NCBI RefSeq assembly: GCF_016804325.1
Contig: NZ_CP043627.1
Coordinates: forward strand, 354,001 to 418,000
Length of the DNA stretch: 64,000 nt
Origin: Methylobacterium aquaticum
GTDB taxonomy: Bacteria > Pseudomonadota > Alphaproteobacteria > Rhizobiales > Beijerinckiaceae
Direction: 5' to 3'
Shown here: positions 1 through 20,086 of the stretch, in pieces
How the letters are laid out: each line of letters starts with the position of its first letter
Numbering within the stretch: the first letter of the stretch is position 1
Translations under genes and position numbers: made by a program
The notes under the pieces: generated by a model
Told to the model about the DNA's origin: nothing
Databases searched by the model: none
What the model saw: only the letters and a program-made list of their open reading frames with translations

Positions 1-1124
<1,124 letters not shown>

Positions 1125-1131
1125 TCGCGAC

Positions 1132-1163
1132 GCCGGGGCCTCACGCCGGGCCCCGGCTCTTTA
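1132..1163 (+). terminator. Rho-independent terminator after acs
   Basis: Perfect 9-bp stem GCCGGGGCC (1132-1140) / GGCCCCGGC (1149-1157) followed by TCTTTA, starting 7 bases after the acs stop. It probably separates acs from the downstream DUF485-actP pair. Confidence 0.7.
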
Positions 1164-1419
1164 GTCCCGCGGGAGACGGTCGCATGTCTCAGACCTTCGT
1201 CGCATCGCGGGCATTTTCTCTCCCTTTGCGCTGGCATTCGCCAGAGAATCGCGTCATCGGGATTTTTGCGCCGCAGCAACCACGCCCGGCGCAAGCTGAA
1301 GCCTGACAAGACCAGGCATCCAGACAGATCGAAGCACCGGTTTCATCGTCCCGTGCCGCGTCCGGCGCGCCGCGGAACCGTGCCCGATCACAGAACAGAA
1401 ACATAAGGGAGGCCCGCCG
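1164..1419. other. Intergenic region before the DUF485-actP pair
   Basis: No convincing gene is seen. Short open frames here lack a ribosome binding site and recognisable protein character. It presumably holds the promoter of the acetate permease pair; AAGGGAGG just upstream of 1420 is the ribosome binding site of the next gene. Confidence 0.5.
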
Positions 1420-1728
1420 ATGGCAGAGGCAGATACCGCACGGGTTCAGGCGAGCCCGACATTCCGCCGATTGGTGCAGGAACGCACCCGCTTCGCCTGG
1501 ATCCTGTCCGGTGCGATGCTGGCGATCTACCTCGTCTTCATCCTGCTCGTCGCCTTCGCGCATGGATTGATGGCGACGAAGGTCGGCTCCGGCGTGACCT
1601 CGCTGGGCATCGTGCTGGGCCTCGTCGTCATCGTCTCGGCCTTCGTGCTGACCGGCATCTACGTCGCGCGGGCCAATGGCCGCTTCGACGACCTGACCCG
1701 CGACCTGAACCGGGAGCTCGGCCGATGA
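1420..1728 (+). CDS. DUF485 small inner-membrane protein (YjcH family)
   Basis: 102-residue membrane protein of the DUF485/YjcH family, almost always encoded just before the acetate permease ActP. Two hydrophobic segments are visible (about residues 29-51 and 62-84) flanked by charged ends, with the family-type N-terminal stretch [17 protein letters not shown] strong ribosome binding site (AAGGGAGG) precedes the ATG. The stop overlaps the actP start by 4 bases (ATGA), so the two are translationally coupled. Its molecular role is not established in the family; an accessory role in acetate transport is inferred from the linkage. Confidence 0.92.
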
Positions 1729-3413
1729 ACGCGCGCCGCATCGCCATCGTGGCGCTTCTCACCCTCGTCGGAGCCGGCGCGGCCTTGGCCGCCGGGCCGG
1801 ATCTCGGCGCCGTGCAGAAGCAGGCGACGAACTGGACCGCCGTCGTCATGTTCCTGCTCTTCGTGCTCGCCACGCTGGGCATCACCTACAAGGCCGCGTC
1901 GGGCTCGAAGTCGGCGGCGGACTTCTACGCCGCCGGCGGTGGCATCTCGGCCGGCCAGAATGCGCTGGCGATCGCCGGCGACTACATGTCGGCGGCCTCG
2001 TTCCTCGGCATCTCGGGCCTGGTGTTCTCGTCGGGCTTCGACGGGCTGATCTACTCGATCGGGTTCCTGGTCGGCTGGCCGATCGTGCTGTTCCTGATCG
2101 CCGAGCGCCTGCGCAACCTCGGCAAGTTCACCTTCGCCGACGTGGCGAGCTTCCGCCTCGACCAGACCCGGATCCGCATCCTGTCGGCGACCGGCACCCT
2201 CGTGGTGGTGGCGTTCTACCTGATCGCCCAGATGGTCGGCGCCGGGAAGCTGATCCAGCTCCTGTTCGGCCTCGACTACCTCACCGCCATCATCGCGGTC
2301 GGCATCCTGATGATCGTCTACGTCGCCTTCGGCGGCATGAAGGCGACGACCTGGGTGCAGATCATCAAGGCCTGCCTGCTGCTGGCCGGCGCGTCCTTCA
2401 TGGCCCTCGCCGTGCTGTGGCGCTACGGCTTCAACCCGGAGGCCCTGTTCGCCGCGGCGGTCGCCGAGCACCCCAAGCACGAGGCGATCATGGCGCCGGG
2501 CGGCCTCGTCGCCGATCCGATCTCGTCGCTCTCGCTCGGCATCGGCCTGATGTTCGGCACCGCCGGCCTGCCCCACATCCTGATGCGGTTCTTCACCGTG
2601 TCGGACGCGCAAGCCGCCCGCAAGTCGGTGTTCTACGCCACCGGGCTCATCGCCTACTTCTACATCCTGACCTTCATCATCGGCTTCGGCGCCATCACCT
2701 TCCTGATGAGCGACCCGAGCTACTTCAAGGCCGGGGCGAATGGCGGCTACGACCGGATCGCCGGGCTCATCGGCGGCAGCAACATGGCGGCGGTGCATCT
2801 GGCCAACGCCACCGGCGGCTCGCTCTTCCTCGGCTTCATCTCGGCGGTGGCCTTCGCGACCATCCTCGCCGTGGTGGCCGGCCTGACGCTCGCCGGCGCC
2901 TCGGCGGTCAGCCACGACCTCTACGCCCAGGTCTTCGCCCGCGGGCGCACGACCGAGGCCGGCGAGGTGCGGCTGTCGAAGATCGCGGCCGTCGTGATCG
3001 GCATCGTGGCGATCTATCTCGGCTACGTGTTCGAGAACCAGAACGTCGCCTTCATGGTCGGCCTCGCCTTCGCGGTGGCGGCGAGCTGCAACTTCCCGGT
3101 TCTCGCCATGTCGATCCTGTGGAAGGGCACGACCACGCTCGGCGCCCTCGTCGGCGGCCTGATCGGCCTCGTCAGCGCCGTCGTGATGGTGGTGCTGTCG
3201 AAGGCGGTGTGGGTCACGACCTTCGGTCATCCGGCGGCGCTCTTCCCCTACGACAACCCGGCCCTGTTCTCGATGCCCCTGGCGTTCCTCGGCATCTGGG
3301 CGGTGTCGAAGATCGACAACTCCGCCCGGGCAAAGCGCGAGCGGGCGGCGTTCGAGGCGCAGTACGTGCGTTCCGAGACCGGCATCGGGGCGTCGGGCGC
3401 GCACGCGCATTGA
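1725..3413 (+). CDS. actP: Cation/acetate symporter ActP
   Basis: 562-residue sodium:solute symporter family protein, length typical of ActP (about 550). It begins with a cleavable-looking hydrophobic leader (residues 5-24, ending ALAAGP) and then about 13 hydrophobic segments. Family stretches visible include [14 protein letters not shown] near residue 85 and [15 protein letters not shown] near residue 280. It imports acetate and other short carboxylates across the inner membrane. Start overlaps the DUF485 stop; acs lies immediately upstream, so the trio forms an acetate utilisation locus. Confidence 0.93.
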
Positions 3414-12807: not shown

Positions 12808-13943
12808 CTACCCCCGCGGGAACACCCGCGCCGCGCCCACCACCAGGGCGACCCGGTCGCCCGGCTCGTAGACATCCGTCACCTTCACCTCGACCGGGGC
12901 CTCGGCGCCGTCGAGCAGGATCTCCGCCACGGTGCCCCGGCCGGTCCGGCGCCATTCGCGCACGGTGCCCGGCAGCGTGCCGGGCCCCTGCCCGACCGTG
13001 AGGTCCCAGGGACGCAGGCAGAGATCGACCGGCCCTTGCGGCCAGCCGGCCTCCGCGGCGATCACGGTGCGGCCGGCGACCCGGACCTCGCGGCCCACGA
13101 CCTCCGCGGCCAGGCGGGCGGTCTCGCCGACGAAGGACATCACGAAGCGCGAGGCCGGATGGTCCTGAACCTCGTGCGGCGCACCGACCTGCTCGATGCG
13201 GCCCTTGTTGAGGATCGCGATCCGGTCGGCGAGTTCCAGCGCCTCGTCCTGGTCGTGGGTGACGAAGATCGTGGTCTGGCCGGTCTCGCGGTGGATCTCC
13301 CGCAGCCAGCGGCGCAGGTCCTTGCGGACCTGGGCGTCCAGCGCCCCGAACGGCTCGTCGAGGAGCAGCACCGAGGGCTCGACCGCGAGCGCCCGGGCGA
13401 GCGCCACCCGCTGACGCTGGCCGCCGGAGAGCTGGCCCGGATAGCGCCTGGCGAGGTCGGGCAGTTGCACGAGTTCGAGCAGGCGCTCGACCCGGCGGCG
13501 GATCTCGTCCTCCTTCGGACGGTGGGCCCGGGGCGCGAGCGCAGCCCGTAGGCGATGTTCTCGAACACCGTGAGATGCCGGAACAGGGCGTAGTGCTGGA
13601 ACACGAAGCCGACGCCGCGGCTCTGGACCGGGATGTCGGTGGTGTCCTGCGAACCGAAGAACACCCGGCCGCCATCCGGGATCTCGAGCCCGGCGATGAC
13701 GCGCAGCAGCGTCGTCTTGCCGGAGCCCGAGGGGCCGAGCAGGGCCAGAAGCTCGCCCGGCTCGATCGCCAGGCTGACGCCTTCGAGCGCCGCGGGGCCC
13801 GGGCCGCCATAGCGCTTGACGATGCCGTCGACCCGGACCGACGTGCCGGCCTGGCGCAGGCGCTCGGCGGAGGCCGTCTCGACCGGGCGGGCGGACGCCT
13901 CGCGGCGCAGGGATAGGGCGGTGGGAGCGAATCCTGCCGTCAT
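12808..13943 (-). pseudogene. cysA: Sulfate ABC transporter ATP-binding protein, frameshifted
   Basis: Cytoplasmic ATPase of the CysTWA sulfate/thiosulfate importer. The 5' part (start ATG 13943, [15 protein letters not shown]) carries Walker A GPSGSGKT and runs to [11 protein letters not shown]. The 3' part, in another frame, carries [15 protein letters not shown], Walker [12 protein letters not shown], the H-loop VTHD and a TOBE-like C-terminus. The break is at about 13526-13534 in a GGGCCCGGGG run: adding one G restores [20 protein letters not shown]. Everything else is intact and the operon is complete, so a sequencing or assembly error is more likely than true loss. The start overlaps the cysW stop region. 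Restored length is about 379 residues, slightly long for CysA because of an N-terminal extension. Confidence 0.88.
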
Positions 13944-13944
13944 C

Positions 13945-14829
13945 TCAGTGGCCTCCGCGTCCGGCCAGCGCATCGGCGTGGCGCCATTCCAGGAAAGATT
14001 TACCCGCCAGGGTGACGAGCGCGAGGAGCGCCAACAGCGAGGCGATGCCGAACGCCGCCACGTAGTTGTACTCGTTGTACAGGATCTCGACGTGGAGCGG
14101 CATGGTGTTGGTGAGCCCCCGGATGCGGCCCGACACGACCGAGACGGCACCGAACTCGCCCATCGCCCGGGCGTTGCAGAGCAGCACGCCGTAGAGCAAG
14201 GCCCAGCGCACGTTCGGCAGGGTCACGGTGCGAAACACCCGCCACGGGCTGGCGCCGAGGGTCAACGCGGCTTCCTCGTCGGTGGTGCCCTGGTCCTGCA
14301 TCAAGGGGATCAGTTCGCGGGCGACGAACGGGAAGGTGACGAACACCGTGGCGAGCACGATGCCCGGCACCGCGAAGACGATCTCGATCCCGTGGCGTTG
14401 CAGGAACGGCCCGAACAGCCCCTGCGCCCCGAAGATCAGCACGTAGATCAGGCCGGCGACCACCGGCGAGACCGAGAACGGCAGGTCGATGAGGGTGATG
14501 AGCAGGTTACGGCCGCGGAAGTCGAACTTGGCGATGGCCCAGGAAGCGCACAGGCCGAACACGACGTTGAGCGGCACGGCGATCACCGCGACGAGGAGCG
14601 TCAGGCGGACCGCCGCGAGGGCGTCGGGCTCGGCGAAGCTGGCGAGATAGGGCCCCAGTCCCTTGCTCAGCGCCTCGACGAACACCACCGCGAGCGGCAG
14701 CAGCAGGAACAGCGCGAGGAACGCCACTGCCAGCACGGTGAGCGCGATGCGGACCGGGCGGGGCTCGGTCAAAGCCGCATGTGGGCCGCGTGCAGCGGGG
14801 CGAATGGAGGGAACGGTGGTCTCAGACAT
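13945..14829 (-). CDS. cysW: Sulfate ABC transporter permease CysW
   Basis: 294-residue inner-membrane permease subunit, normal length for CysW. Six or so membrane segments are visible, and the EAA-type coupling loop that contacts CysA is [21 protein letters not shown] (residues about 195-215); [11 protein letters not shown] follows, as is typical of molybdate/sulfate permeases. The first codons ([11 protein letters not shown]) overlap the end of cysT by 8 bases and the stop lies 1 base from the cysA start, so cysT-cysW-cysA are translationally coupled. Confidence 0.93.
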
Positions 14830-15691
14830 GACCGAACCTGCGGCGGCTGAAATCCTGCAAGAGGTTGATGGCGAGAAGCGCGGTGAAGGACATCAGCAGC
14901 ATCACGGCGGCGATGGCCGTGGCGCCCGCATAGTTGAACTCCTCGAGCTTGATCACGATCAGCAGGGGCGCGATCTCGGAGACGTAAGGCAGGTTGCCGG
15001 CGACGAAGATCACCGAGCCGTATTCCCCGACGGCGCGTGCGAAGGCGAGCGCGAAGCCGGTGAGCATCGCGGGGATCAGGGGCGGCAGGATCACGGTGAC
15101 CAGCGCTCGGAAGCGCGAGGCGCCGAGGATGGCGGCCGCCTCCTCGCTCGACTTGTCGATCTCGGCGACCAGCGGCTGCACCGTGCGGACGCAGAACGGC
15201 AGGCCGACGAAGACGAGCGCCACCAGGATACCGAGCGGCGTGTAGGCGACCTTGATGCCGAGAGCCATCAAGGGCTCGCCGAGCCAGCCGTTCGGCGCGT
15301 AGAGGCTGGCGAGCGCGATGCCGGCGACAGCCGTCGGCAGCGCGAAGGGCAGATCCACCAGCGCGTCGATGATCCGCCGGCCGGGAAACCGGTAGCGGGT
15401 CAGCACCCAGGCGATCAGGAGCCCGAACACCGCGTCGATCGCGGCGGCGGCCAGCGACAGGCCGAACGAGGTCTTGAGCGCCGCGAGGTTGCGGGAATCG
15501 GTGATCAGCGCCCACAGGCCGGCGGGGCCGACGCTGGCGGCGCGCAGGAGCAGCACCGCGAGCGGCAGGAGGACGAGCAGGGTCAGGTAGGTGAGCGTGA
15601 TCCCGAAGGTCAGGCGGAAACCCGGCAGCGCGCTCGGTCGCCGGAAGCGGGCCGCTCCCCGCCCCGCGGGCAGGACCGCGGCGCCGCTCAT
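14822..15691 (-). CDS. cysT: Sulfate ABC transporter permease CysT
   Basis: 289-residue inner-membrane permease partner of CysW. Membrane segments are visible throughout; the coupling loop is [21 protein letters not shown] and is followed by [19 protein letters not shown], the family signature. The start overlaps the stop of the cysN-sbp frame by 4 bases (ATGA), continuing the chain of overlapping genes from cysH to cysA. Imports sulfate or thiosulfate delivered by the periplasmic binding protein. Confidence 0.93.
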
Positions 15692-16716
15692 TGGCGGGAC
15701 TTCAGGATGGCGTCGAACACGCCGCCATCGTCGAAATGGGTCTTCTGGGCCTTGGGCCAGCCGCCGAAGGTGTCGTCGATGGTGACGAGCTTCAGCTTGG
15801 GGAAGCGGGCCAGGTCCTCCTTCGCCGCCGCCGACTCGTCGCGCGGGCGGTAGAAGTTCTTGGCGATGATCGCTTGCGCTTCAGGCGTGTAGAGGAATTG
15901 CAGGTAGGCCTCGGCCTGCTTGCGGGTGCCCTTCTGGTCGACGTTGGCGTCGATCAAGGCCACCGGAGGCTCGGCCAGGATCGACAGGGAGGGCACGACG
16001 ATGTCGAACTTGCCCTTGCCGAATTCCTCGTCGGCGAGGAACGCCTCGTTCTCCCAGGCGATCAGCACGTCGCCGAGGCCCCGCTGCACGAAGGTGGTGG
16101 TGGCGCCCCGCGCCCCGGTGTCGAGCACCGGCACGTTCTTGAACAGGGCGGTGACGAAGTCCTTCGCCTTGGCGTCGTCGTTGTTGTTCTTTGACAGCGC
16201 GTAGGCGTAGGCCGCCAGATAGTTCCAGCGCGCCCCGCCCGAGGTCTTCGGATTCGGGGTGATGACCTGGATTCCCGGCTTCACCAGGTCGTTCCAGTCC
16301 TTGATCCCCTTCGGGTTGCCCTTGCGGACCAGGAACACGATGGTCGAGGTGTAGGGCGTCGAGTTGTTCGGCAGCCGCTTCTGCCAGTCGGCCGGCAGCT
16401 TCTTCGAGCGGGCGGCGATGGCGTCGATATCGCTGGCGAGCGCCAGCGTCACCACGTCGGCCGGCAGCCCGTCGATCACCGAGCGGGCCTGGGCGCCGGA
16501 GCCGCCATGCGAGGCGCGCACCGTCACGGTCTCGCCGGTCTTGGCCTTCCACTCCTTGGCGAAGGCCGCGTCGATCGCCCGGTACAGTTCCCGGGTCGGA
16601 TCGTAGGAGACGTTGAGCAGGGTCTGGGCGCGGACGGGAGCCGGAGCTCCCGCCAGGGCCAGGAGCGAGGCTCCGGCGGCGAGCGCTAGGGACGAACCGC
16701 GGAACAGCCGCTTCAA
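15688..16716 (-). other. sbp: Sulfate-binding protein module with possible internal TTG start
   Basis: Within the cysN frame a TTG at 16716 would start [20 protein letters not shown], a complete signal peptide with basic n-region, hydrophobic core and PVRAQ cleavage region, giving a 342-residue protein, the usual Sbp length. No good ribosome binding site is seen before it (only GGCGGCGGC). If used, CysN alone would still lack a stop codon. Separate expression of Sbp is inferred from localisation logic, not shown. Confidence 0.55.
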
Positions 16717-18108
16717 CGAGCCGAGGAGGCCGCCGCCGGCGGGAGCCGCCTCGGTCTTCGCTTCCGTTTTCGGAGCCTCGACCTTGGTCCCGCCCTGCGA
16801 AGCGACGGGCAGGGCCTGGACGAGGCCGAGTGCCGCGGTGTCGGTGGTCGCCCGGTCGATCAGGATCAGGCTGCCGGTGTCGCGGTTCTGCCGGTAGGCA
16901 TCGACCGCGACCTTGCGGTCGAGGCTGAGCGTCACGTCGCCGATGTCGTTCGCGCTCAAGGACCCGGCCGGCACGCCCTGCCCGGTCTCGGTGTCGATGC
17001 GTGCCCGCACCGCCTCGACCACGGCATTCGCCGTGACGGTGCCGATCTTGGCGAGGTAGGTCGCGCCGGGGGTCAGCTCGGTCTCGTTGGCCCAGAACAG
17101 CCGCACCTCGAGCCGATCGCCGACGATCGGGGCCTGCGCGGCCGCCGTGATCACGCTGCCGCGGGAGGCATCGACCTCGTCGGCCAGCACCAGGGTCACA
17201 GACTGGCCCGCGATGGCCCGCGGCAGGTCGCCGTCATAGGTGTAGATCCGGGCGATCGTCGACGGCGTGCCGGCGGGCGCCACCACCACTTGGTCGCCGA
17301 CCGCGACCGCACCCGACGCGATCAGGCCCGAGAAGCCGCGGAAGTCGGAATTTGGCCGGTTGACCCACTGCACCGCCATGCGGAAGGGAGCGGCCTCCTC
17401 CTCGACATGCGCGGGCACCTCCTCGAGGTATTGCAGCAGCGGCGCGCCGGTGTACCAGGGCGCGGCGGTGCCCGGCAGCACGACGTTGTCGCCGTTCGCC
17501 GCCGAGAGCGGGATGCCGGTGACGTCGGAGAAGCGCAGGCCTTTCGCAAAGGCCTGGAACTCGGCGACGATGGCGTCGAACCGACTCTCGGACCAGCCGA
17601 TCAGGTCCATCTTGTTGACCGCCAGCACGACGCGGCGGATGCCGAGCATCGAGACCAGGAGCGCGTGGCGCCTTGTCTGCGGGCTGAGGCCCTTCCTCGC
17701 ATCCACCAGCAGCACCGCGACCTCGGCGGTCGAGGCGCCGGTCGCCATGTTGCGGGTGTACTGGACGTGGCCGGGGGTGTCGGCGACGATGAACGAGCGC
17801 CGCTCGGTCGAGAAGAACCGGTAGGCGACGTCGATGGTGATGCCCTGCTCGCGCTCGGCCTGGAGGCCGTCGACGAGGAGGGCGAGGTCGATCTCGCCGC
17901 CCCGCGTGCCGTGGCGGCGCGAATCGCGCTCCAGCGCGCTGACCTGGTCGTCGAAGATCTGCTTGGTGTCGTGCAGCAGGCGCCCGATCAGGGTCGACTT
18001 GCCGTCATCGACCGAGCCGCAGGTGATGAACCGCAGCACTTCCTTCCGCTGATGGGCGGCGAGAAAGGCCTCGTAGCCGAAAGCGCGGGTGGATTGATGC
18101 ACGGTCAT
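15688..18108 (-). CDS. cysN: Fused CysN GTPase - sulfate-binding protein (806 residues)
   Basis: One uninterrupted frame holding two full-length proteins. Residues 1-about 440 are CysN, the GTPase subunit of ATP sulfurylase: [14 protein letters not shown] (G1), [11 protein letters not shown] (G3), NKMD (G4), then EF-Tu-like beta-barrel domains to [17 protein letters not shown]. Residues about 441-464 are a linker ([19 protein letters not shown]). From about 465 to 806 is a periplasmic sulfate-binding protein (Sbp/CysP type) beginning with its own signal peptide, [20 protein letters not shown] ending PVRAQ, and containing [16 protein letters not shown] and [20 protein letters not shown]. CysN must act in the cytosol and Sbp in the periplasm, so a single fused product is hard to explain. 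The start overlaps cysD (ATGA), the stop overlaps cysT. See the internal start entry and findings. Confidence 0.9.
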
Positions 18109-19043
18109 CAGAAGTAGCCTTCCTGCTTCTTGCGCTCCATGGCGCCGGCGCCATCCTTGTCGATCACCCGGCCCTGCCGCTCGGAGGTGCGGGCGGCCAG
18201 CGTCTCGCCGATGATCTCCGGCAGGGTCGCGGCGTCGCTCTCCACCGCGCCGGTCAGCGGGTAGCAGCCGAGCGTCCGGAACCGCACGAGACGCATCTCG
18301 GGCGTCTCGCCAGGGTTCAGCGGCAGCCGCTCGTCGTCCACCATGATCAACTGCCCGTCGCGCTGCACGACGGGGCGCTCGGCCGCGTAATAGAGCGGCA
18401 CGATCGGGATGTTCTCCTGCTCGATGTAGAGCCAGATATCGAGCTCGGTCCAGTTCGACAGCGGGAAGACGCGCAACGACTCACCGCGCTGCTTCCTCAT
18501 GTTGTAGAGGTGCCAGGGCTCGGCGCGCTGGCGCTTCGGGTCCCAGCGGTGCTGCGCGGTGCGCAACGACACGATGCGCTCCTTGGCCCGCGAGGCCTCC
18601 TCGTCGCGGCGCGCCCCGCCGAAGGCCGCGTCGAACTTGTGCTTGTCGAGTGCCTGGCGCAGGGCCTGGGTCTTCATCACGTCGGTATGGACCTCGGAGC
18701 CGTGGCTCACCGGCCCGATGCCGCGGGCGAGCCCGTCCGGGTTGGTGTGGACCAGGAGATCGAGGCCGAGTTCCTTGGCGCGCCGGTCGCGGAAGGCGAT
18801 CATCTCGCGGAACTTCCAGGTCGTGTCGACGTGGAGCAGCGGGAACGGCAGCCGGCCCGGCGCGAAGGCCTTGAGCGCCAGGTGCAGCAGGACCGAGGAA
18901 TCCTTGCCGATCGAGTACAGCATCACCGGATTCTCGGTCTCGGCGACCGTCTCCCGCATGATGTGGATGCTCTCGGCCTCCAGGCGCTGGAGGTGGGTCA
19001 GACGGTCGAGCCCGTCGGTACGGGCCTTGAGGGCGGCGCTCAT
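18108..19043 (-). CDS. cysD: Sulfate adenylyltransferase subunit 2 CysD
   Basis: 311-residue catalytic subunit of ATP sulfurylase, normal length (about 300). It makes adenosine 5'-phosphosulfate from sulfate and ATP, driven by the CysN GTPase. The PP-loop nucleotide motif reads [19 protein letters not shown] near residue 45. Other family blocks: [33 protein letters not shown] and [15 protein letters not shown]; it ends [10 protein letters not shown] as in family members. ATG 19043 overlaps the cysH stop by 4 bases and the TGA overlaps the cysN ATG, so the subunits are translationally coupled. Confidence 0.96.
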
Positions 19044-19873
19044 GCGACCAGCTCCGGATTGGATGATTGCGACGATGTGGCGGGCTCGAAGGCGCCGGGC
19101 TCCTGCCCGGGCCTGATCTCGCTGCCGGGGGCACCGGCCGAGGCTCCGGGAACATGCAGGCCGCATTCCTGCTTGCCCGCCTGCTCCCACCACCAGCGGC
19201 CGGCGCGCTCGGGCTCGCCGAGCTTCACGGCGCGGGTACAGGGCGCGCAGCCGATCGACGGGAAGCCCCGGTCGTGCAGCACGTTGTAGGGGACGTAGTT
19301 CCCGTGGATCAGCTCGGCCAACGCCTCGCGGGTCCAGTCGGCGATCGGGTTGAGCTTGATCAGCCCGCGGGCGTGGTCGGCCTCGGCGAGCGGCGTCTCG
19401 GCGCGGTTCGCCGACTGGCCGGCCCGGAGACCGGTGAGCCAGCCGGCGGCGCCGGCAAGAGCGCGGCCGAGGGGCTCGACCTTGCGGAAGCCGCAGCAGG
19501 CCTGGCGCGCCGCCACCGAATGGCGAAAGCCGTTGATGCCCTCCTGCGCGACGAAGCGTTCCTCGGCCTCGCGCTCCGGCGCGTAGGCGCGGATGCGGAA
19601 GCCGTAGGCGGCTTCCGTCTCGGCCCAGGTGTCGTAGGTCTCGGGGAAGAGCCGGCCGGTATCGAGGGTCACGATCTCGGCGCGCGACTTCGCCATGCGC
19701 AACGCGTGGGTGAGGGCCTGGTCCTCCAGGCCGAAGCTCGTGGTGAAGACCAGCCGGCCGTCCACCGTCGCGTCGATCAGCGCGAGACGCGCCTGTAGGG
19801 CGAGGGGACGCAGACGCGTCGCCAGTTCTTCCGCAAGGGCGTCCAGCGCCGCGCGGTCGAGGGGAAGGGTCAT
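19040..19873 (-). CDS. cysH: Phosphoadenylyl/adenylyl-sulfate reductase CysH, iron-sulfur type
   Basis: 277-residue thiol-dependent reductase that converts activated sulfate to sulfite. It has the PP-loop-like [15 protein letters not shown] and ETYDTWAE blocks, the catalytic cysteine motif KQECGLH near the C-terminus, and two further cysteine pairs, RQACCGFRK and IGCAPCTRA. Those CC/CxxC pairs bind a [4Fe-4S] cluster in APS reductases and are missing in E. coli-type PAPS reductases. With no cysC kinase in this block, direct APS reduction is inferred. Start chosen at ATG 19873 ([10 protein letters not shown]); a GTG at 19936 is in frame but falls in the operator/promoter sequence. Confidence 0.92.
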
Positions 19874-19912
19874 GGAGAGCCCGGGATTGGCTGCTTGTGT
19901 GGGGAGGTAACT

Positions 19913-19928
19913 GTTCGCTATACCGAAC
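19913..19928. promoter_or_regulatory. Candidate operator GTTC-N8-GAAC upstream of cysH
   Basis: Perfect dyad GTTCGCTATACCGAAC, extended one base each side to TGTTCG-N6-CGAACA. On the minus strand it begins two bases downstream of a consensus-like -35 hexamer TTGACA (complement of 19931-19936) and about 40 bases before the cysH ATG, a position suited to repression. A dyad of the same form lies before cysJ. Confidence 0.6.
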
Positions 19929-20086
19929 ACTGTCAAGGCATGGCTGGGCTGCGGTCCCGGAGTTTTTCATTCTCCTCGCAGCCGCATCTCGCCCTATTCG
20001 GGATCCGGCCAACCCTCGCATAGGAAATCCGTTCCCTTCCCGAGGGTCAGTCTTGAAAGAATCTTCTCCAAAACCGGAGCCGCGCA

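Follow-up and report, generated by a model that had tools for sequence, protein, structure and literature searches.

The cysN::sbp frame and its conservation

The subject of this analysis is cysN::sbp, a gene of Methylobacterium aquaticum in which a CysN-type GTPase and a sulfate-binding protein (Sbp) are encoded in one reading frame. It lies in a stretch of 64,000 nucleotides (contig NZ_CP043627.1, positions 354,001 to 418,000 of the forward strand), which we call the window, and its features are listed in Table 1 in window coordinates. An initial annotation, made from the sequence alone, had described a single frame of 806 codons with a complete CysN and a complete Sbp, and this is borne out by family models, structure alignments and 20 genomes.

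Table 1. Features of the cysN::sbp locus, with positions counted from the first nucleotide of the window.
Feature	Position	Strand	Evidence and remarks
cysN::sbp fusion gene	15688..18108	minus	806 codons and stop, ATG start; open-frame list, family models
CysN domain, residues 1-430	16819..18108	minus	whole TIGR02034 model; 1ZUN_B alignment
Native CysN C-terminal tail, residues 431-470	16699..16818	minus	variable Ala/Pro/Lys/Glu stretch and terminal motif; like the tail ends of 54/54 distinct unfused Methylobacterium CysN tails
Hydrophobic signal with c-region, up to VRA|Q (residues 471-494)	16627..16698	minus	proposed internal signal/membrane segment and signal peptidase site; (A/V)-x-A|Q in 20/20
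TTG codon 465	16714..16716	minus	candidate internal start of the initial annotation; not conserved; no Shine-Dalgarno-like motif in 20/20
Mature sulfate-binding protein, residues 495-806	15691..16626	minus	TIGR00971; 1SBP_A alignment begins at query 497 / chain residue 5
cysD	18108..19115	minus	TIGR02039, 499.6 bits over residues 42-335; start codon not settled; 1-base overlap with fusion
cysH-like open reading frame	19040..19936	minus	upstream, same order kept in relatives; name from sequence resemblance
cysT permease	14822..15691	minus	TIGR02139, 388.6 bits, cut-off 246.1; 4-base overlap with fusion
cysW permease	13945..14829	minus	TIGR02140, 405.2 bits, cut-off 329.1
cysA ATPase	12808..13838	minus	reading frame broken into two in the assembly

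Both halves of the protein are matched over practically their whole family models. Residues 25-430 correspond to positions 1-406 of the 406 in the CysN profile TIGR02034 (584.6 bits against a cut-off of 336.1), and residues 493-801 to positions 9-315 of the 315 in the Sbp profile TIGR00971 (485.3 bits, cut-off 155.5). The protein also scores above the cut-offs of PRK05124 for CysN (608.1, cut-off 590) and PRK10752 for Sbp (507.5, cut-off 288). The structure alignments pair residues 13-430 with 1ZUN_B and residues 497-803 with 1SBP_A, and the Sbp half retains all seven positions of 1SBP that we take to be its ligand residues (D11, S45, S130, G131, G132, A173, W192). According to its family match, the CysN half is predicted to act with CysD in GTP-dependent sulfate activation in the cytosol. 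Neither the adenosine 5'-phosphosulfate (APS) kinase domain PF01583 nor the DUF2061 domain PF09834 has a match in the fusion protein, and the PRK05506 score of 630.8 is below the cut-off of 715. The Sbp half has no N-terminal signal peptide; its signal is internal, at about residues 465-494. An AlphaFold model made from 39 sequences consists of two folded domains, with a predicted TM-score (pTM) of 0.50.

The initial annotation had proposed looking among close relatives for the same fusion and for the lengths of cysN and sbp. We found the unbroken fusion in 20 of 111 Methylobacterium genomes, each time as a single match over query residues 1-806, in one frame and with no stop. The 20 frames are distinct in DNA sequence and encode 798-821 amino acids, so they differ in length by whole codons. 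The 19 other proteins are 84-96% identical to that of the window, and eight of the 20 frames are identical in DNA to named public records (M. tarhaniae, M. terricola, M. nonmethylotrophicum, M. variabile, M. oryzihabitans, M. platani, M. ajmalii and sp. DB0501). These names fit a correspondence of the fused branch with group C of PMC9364378, where DB0501 is unnamed. In each of the remaining 91 genomes CysN is matched separately, reaching residue 569 at the furthest, with stops read through. They have two or three matches each, and the separate sbp is not among the matches listed for every one of them.

No fusion was found outside the genus in overlapping samples of 397 genomes of the order, 398 of the phylum and 337 of the class, nor among the matches listed outside Methylobacterium in a sequence search (78 loci). 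None of 584 plasmid records has a match covering 80% of the query. The cysN::sbp fusion is real and old within its Methylobacterium branch, and it is no product of error.

In all 20 fused genomes the Sbp family model has one match, which is the fusion itself, and the CysN model has one match above its cut-off. Further matches of the CysN profile fall below the cut-off and are of EF-Tu/EF-G type, as judged by position and score. The fusion is thus the only Sbp and the only above-cut-off CysN of these genomes, so both functions must be supplied by it, provided that these families perform them.

At residue 115 (about 17764-17766), directly after the switch-II histidine (DTPGHxQYTRN), valine is present in 15 of the 20 fused CysNs, the window's included. 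The equivalent residue is glutamate in five of the 20 and in all 71 unfused CysN rows. The valine could possibly reflect a retuning of the GTPase.

The junction and the surrounding operon

In unfused Methylobacterium the CysN core is followed by a variable Ala/Pro/Lys/Glu stretch, then by a motif like GGLLSGIKRLFGG, GFLAGLRRLFGGA or GGLLARLGRLFGR, and then by the stop codon. A terminal motif of this kind, basic and amphipathic, is found in all 54 distinct unfused tails (loci L007-L030, L039-L066, L123-L131). The count is confined to the genus (69 loci, 54 distinct tails), to rows with DTAA(L/M)GL(V/I), and to a pattern written after the tails had been seen. The hydrophobic moment of these tails is above that of shuffled sequences, at a mean percentile of 0.89. 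What had been described as a short Lys/Glu/Ala/Pro linker in the fusion is in fact this native C-terminal tail of CysN.

In the fused proteins the end motif of CysN runs directly into a hydrophobic segment, followed by (A/V)-x-A|Q and then LLNVSYDP. As motif and segment are continuous, the two proteins are joined exactly where CysN ends. The last residues of CysN are thus the basic ones in front of the core (K/R-R-L-F), which now appear to serve as the n-region of a signal peptide. A basic flank, a hydrophobic core and small residues at -3 and -1 are present in 20 of 20 proteins, as judged by inspection and a Kyte-Doolittle window. The signal peptidase-like site that had been noticed in PVRAQ is likewise found in each of them. 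In the window it is A494|Q495; position -3 is A or V and position -1 is A throughout, while -2 is free (R, K, E, T, D, S). The predicted cut falls at most two residues from the start of the 1SBP chain numbering in the 1SBP_A alignment.

Mean dN/dS (nonsynonymous over synonymous substitution rates) is 0.59 for the tail, 0.37 for the RLF motif and 0.36 for the signal, compared with 0.21 for CysN and 0.14 for Sbp. These values are rough, being Nei-Gojobori averages over the pairs that 20 related sequences form, with 190, 190, 186, 189, 190 and 190 of 190 pairs used. By these values the junction evolves fast yet in frame, as coding sequence does, and translation through it is well supported.

The gene order is cysH, cysD, cysN::sbp, cysT, cysW, cysA, with sulfite-reductase-like genes divergent upstream; the names cysH and cysI/J-like are from sequence resemblance. 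The CysN half has cysD directly upstream, and the Sbp half is in an operon with cysT, cysW and cysA, though cysA is frameshifted here. The best alignment of this cysA to each of the five closest relatives compared contains one single-base gap, and the gene is a single open frame in seven of seven relatives. Four-base overlaps had been claimed for both ends of the fusion. The one with cysT stands (15688-15691) and is kept in 19 of 20 fused loci, L006 and L119-L122 among them, with L118 deviating; cysT starts there with ATG in 15 and GTG in four. The overlap with cysD is a single base (TGATG), position 18108 being both the end of cysD and the start of the fusion.

Origin of the fusion

The CysN tree, with 91 rows, unites the 20 fused rows (support 94/88) and places them next to 60 further Methylobacterium rows (99/96); some branches outside the genus are long. 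The position of the fused rows beside the others of the genus means that the CysN half is native. The tree of 78 Sbp rows also places the fused rows in one group (100/99), apart from the unfused Methylobacterium Sbps, of which the 15 sampled are on a branch of their own (100/100, length 0.51). Two histories would fit these trees: a gain of a different sbp-cysTWA block by the fused branch, or a replacement of theirs by the other Methylobacterium. The midpoint root gives no direction. As the fused Sbps do not group with the other Methylobacterium Sbps, the sbp-cysTWA block behind the native cysN may be of foreign origin.

The gene contexts fit such a move of the block. The sbp-cysTWA genes are directly behind cysN in five of five fused stretches compared and absent within about 5 kb of cysN in eight of eight unfused ones, and in seven of seven unfused sbp stretches cysTWA sits with sbp, elsewhere than cysN. 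A tblastx comparison of the sequence downstream of cysA in fused genomes with that downstream of cysN in unfused genomes gave no match and did not reveal where the inserted block begins and ends. We propose that the fusion arose once in the ancestor of one branch, where an sbp-cysTWA block would have come to lie directly behind cysN and the stop of cysN and the start of sbp would have been lost.

Three loci (L037, L103, L105) have cysDN followed by sbp-cysTWA in unfused form, two of them (L103 and L105) with the order cysH-D-N and then sbp-T-W-A. L037, from a metagenome-assembled genome of the Betaproteobacteria (886-3126), had been a candidate for a further fusion and was rejected: the cysN stop is followed at once by the sbp ATG in the same frame. 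Its arrangement is likely a picture of the step before fusion.

Proposed processing, alternatives and known systems

We consider it probable that cysN::sbp gives one polypeptide whose internal signal inserts and is cut by signal peptidase after residue 494, and that a single fusion event in the ancestor of the branch lies behind it. The gene would be translated as one chain, with a computed mass of 86 kDa, of which CysN would fold in the cytosol and pair with CysD. The hydrophobic stretch after the basic tail would act as an internal signal, entering the Sec machinery with its N-terminal side cytosolic and carrying Sbp into the periplasm. Signal peptidase I would then cut at VRA|Q and release an Sbp of about 34 kDa to the adjoining CysTWA transporter, leaving a CysN of about 52 kDa that would, for some time at least, keep a membrane segment at its C-terminus. 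We infer export, cleavage, tether and an origin by block acquisition from sequence comparison. A stronger form of the proposal is that the chain is a 1:1 polyprotein supplying every Sbp and CysN of the branch, in which the leftover signal anchors CysN, with CysD, beside CysTWA, and sulfate is activated on entry. This we put forward only tentatively.

Several observations weigh against the proposal or its stronger form. The hydrophobic core is short and its hydrophobicity moderate, with a best 17-residue Kyte-Doolittle mean of 1.36-1.92 among the 20 proteins, so a lasting membrane tether is doubtful; intramembrane proteases could also remove the leftover signal segment of CysN. AlphaFold gives no helix over residues 435-491, at a predicted local distance difference test score (pLDDT) of about 30, which speaks neither for nor against a membrane helix. 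Matches to SulP-type transporters are present in all genomes tested, three fused and two unfused, and their presence in three of three fused genomes means that sulfate uptake need not depend on the fused Sbp. The frameshift in cysA is either a sequencing error or a real loss of the transporter ATPase. An Sbp start at a CTG near the RLF motif would be a further difficulty and is unlikely: the anti-Shine-Dalgarno duplex energy at the codon before this motif is about -5.0, in a Gly-rich stretch, whereas the true ATG has -6.5 to -7.2, and -5.0 is reached by 24% of in-frame CysN windows.

A different view is that synthesis of Sbp starts independently within the frame, at the TTG of 16716 or a comparable codon, and that the fused product is CysN with a dispensable extension made by some ribosomes only. 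The TTG named by the initial annotation does exist, and in the window it would yield a good signal peptide, but as a general start it fails. Codon 465 is TTG in two, GTG in one, CTG in 16 and CTC in one of the 20 frames, and GGAG, GAGG or AGGA is absent within 16 nt upstream of it in all of them. The stretch scanned for an ATG, GTG or TTG runs from where the CysN core ends to 15 residues short of the predicted cut. Seven frames contain such a codon there; the other 13 have no standard codon able to start an exported Sbp, and cysN is without a stop in all 20. The TTG was rejected as a general mechanism on these grounds, and we regard separate synthesis as improbable. Error is a far weaker explanation still, as an artefact of sequencing or assembly or as a frame open by chance in one strain that lacks the stop. 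Long chance frames do occur in GC-rich DNA, and the neighbouring cysA of the same assembly has a one-base frameshift. Four unfused sbp genes with a chance-open upstream frame served as a contrast; there the frame is low-complexity read-through, and sbp has its ATG and signal peptide at the normal place. The cysN::sbp frame is more than a chance open frame, because it is unbroken in 20 of the 111 genomes, in 20 distinct sequences whose junctions differ by many independent changes of whole codons, eight of them also named public records. The error that the initial annotation had allowed for is excluded by these genomes, and the likelihood we leave to it is negligible.

If the chain were exported and not cut, it would form an 86-kDa bridge across the membrane, with CysN inside and Sbp outside. 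The evidence on topology is the same as for the cut chain, a sulfate-binding lipoprotein (6DDN) is among the structure matches of the fusion protein, and membrane-anchored binding proteins are known in other bacteria. On the other side, positions -3 and -1 suit signal peptidase I in all 20 proteins but -2 varies, as expected if cutting is selected, and we hold the uncut bridge to be unlikely, although somewhat less so than an internal start. A last alternative keeps the Sbp half in the cytosol, as a sulfate-binding module of CysN. It would remove the problem of two compartments, and the signal is indeed away from the N-terminus, but the hydrophobic core, its basic flank and a site of AxA type are all conserved, 19 of 20 loci keep the 4-base overlap of sbp with cysT, and the permeases next door have no other Sbp. 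We give this alternative very little credence.

The fusion places two essential-looking proteins of different compartments in one polypeptide, a natural test of how bacteria deal with a signal that lies 470 residues inside, behind a folded GTPase. Transport-coupled sulfate activation, an old idea, becomes directly testable here, because the fusion would force the synthesis and membrane targeting of CysN together with the binding protein of the importer. The gene is also a warning for annotation: to label it simply cysN or simply sbp would be wrong, and one of the two will appear to be missing from genomes of this branch. The initial annotation knew of no fusion of CysN to a binding protein. 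This stands as far as our literature searches reach: they found neither a description of such a fusion nor a bench study of the cysN::sbp arrangement.

Several known systems share parts of this architecture. In the CysN-CysC fusions (NodQ/CysNC), CysN is also joined at its C-terminus to a partner of the same pathway, but that partner is a cytosolic APS kinase, whereas in cysN::sbp an export signal and a periplasmic binding protein take its place. A second CysN of one genome (G344, locus L154) has a match to APS_kinase. Free-standing Sbp (TIGR00971; 1SBP) is a complete domain like the fused one, while the signal of the fusion is internal and comes after 470 residues of a cytosolic enzyme. The CysN-DUF2061 proteins (PF09834) of other Hyphomicrobiales also have a C-terminal membrane segment, in their case a two-helix domain instead of a signal sequence, and no binding protein. 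They occur in two relatives (L152:3659-5296 and L153:3857-5473); PF09834 was significant in two of the five relatives' CysN proteins scanned, and L156 and L103 have hydrophobic ends without a match. CysN matches reach residue 513 or beyond in at least five of 297 genomes of the order, one of them the query's own. The basic amphipathic tail of unfused Methylobacterium CysN may bind the membrane, and together with the DUF2061 domains it suggests a repeated recruitment of CysN to the membrane in the order, a wider tendency that a tethered CysN, if true, would fit.

Internally cut precursors are known as well. The Bradyrhizobium FbcH precursor of cytochromes b and c1 is one of them. A precedent for cutting by signal peptidase at an internal site is the anti-sigma factor RsiP (PMC8844934). 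Like the fusion, these two precursors have a cytosolic or membrane part at the N-terminus, a signal-like segment inside, a signal peptidase site after this segment and an extracytoplasmic C-terminal part. In neither of them is a metabolic enzyme of the cytosol linked to the binding protein of a transporter; for the fusion, cleavage is a prediction. The fusion is a variation on these known kinds, CysN fusions and internally cut precursors.

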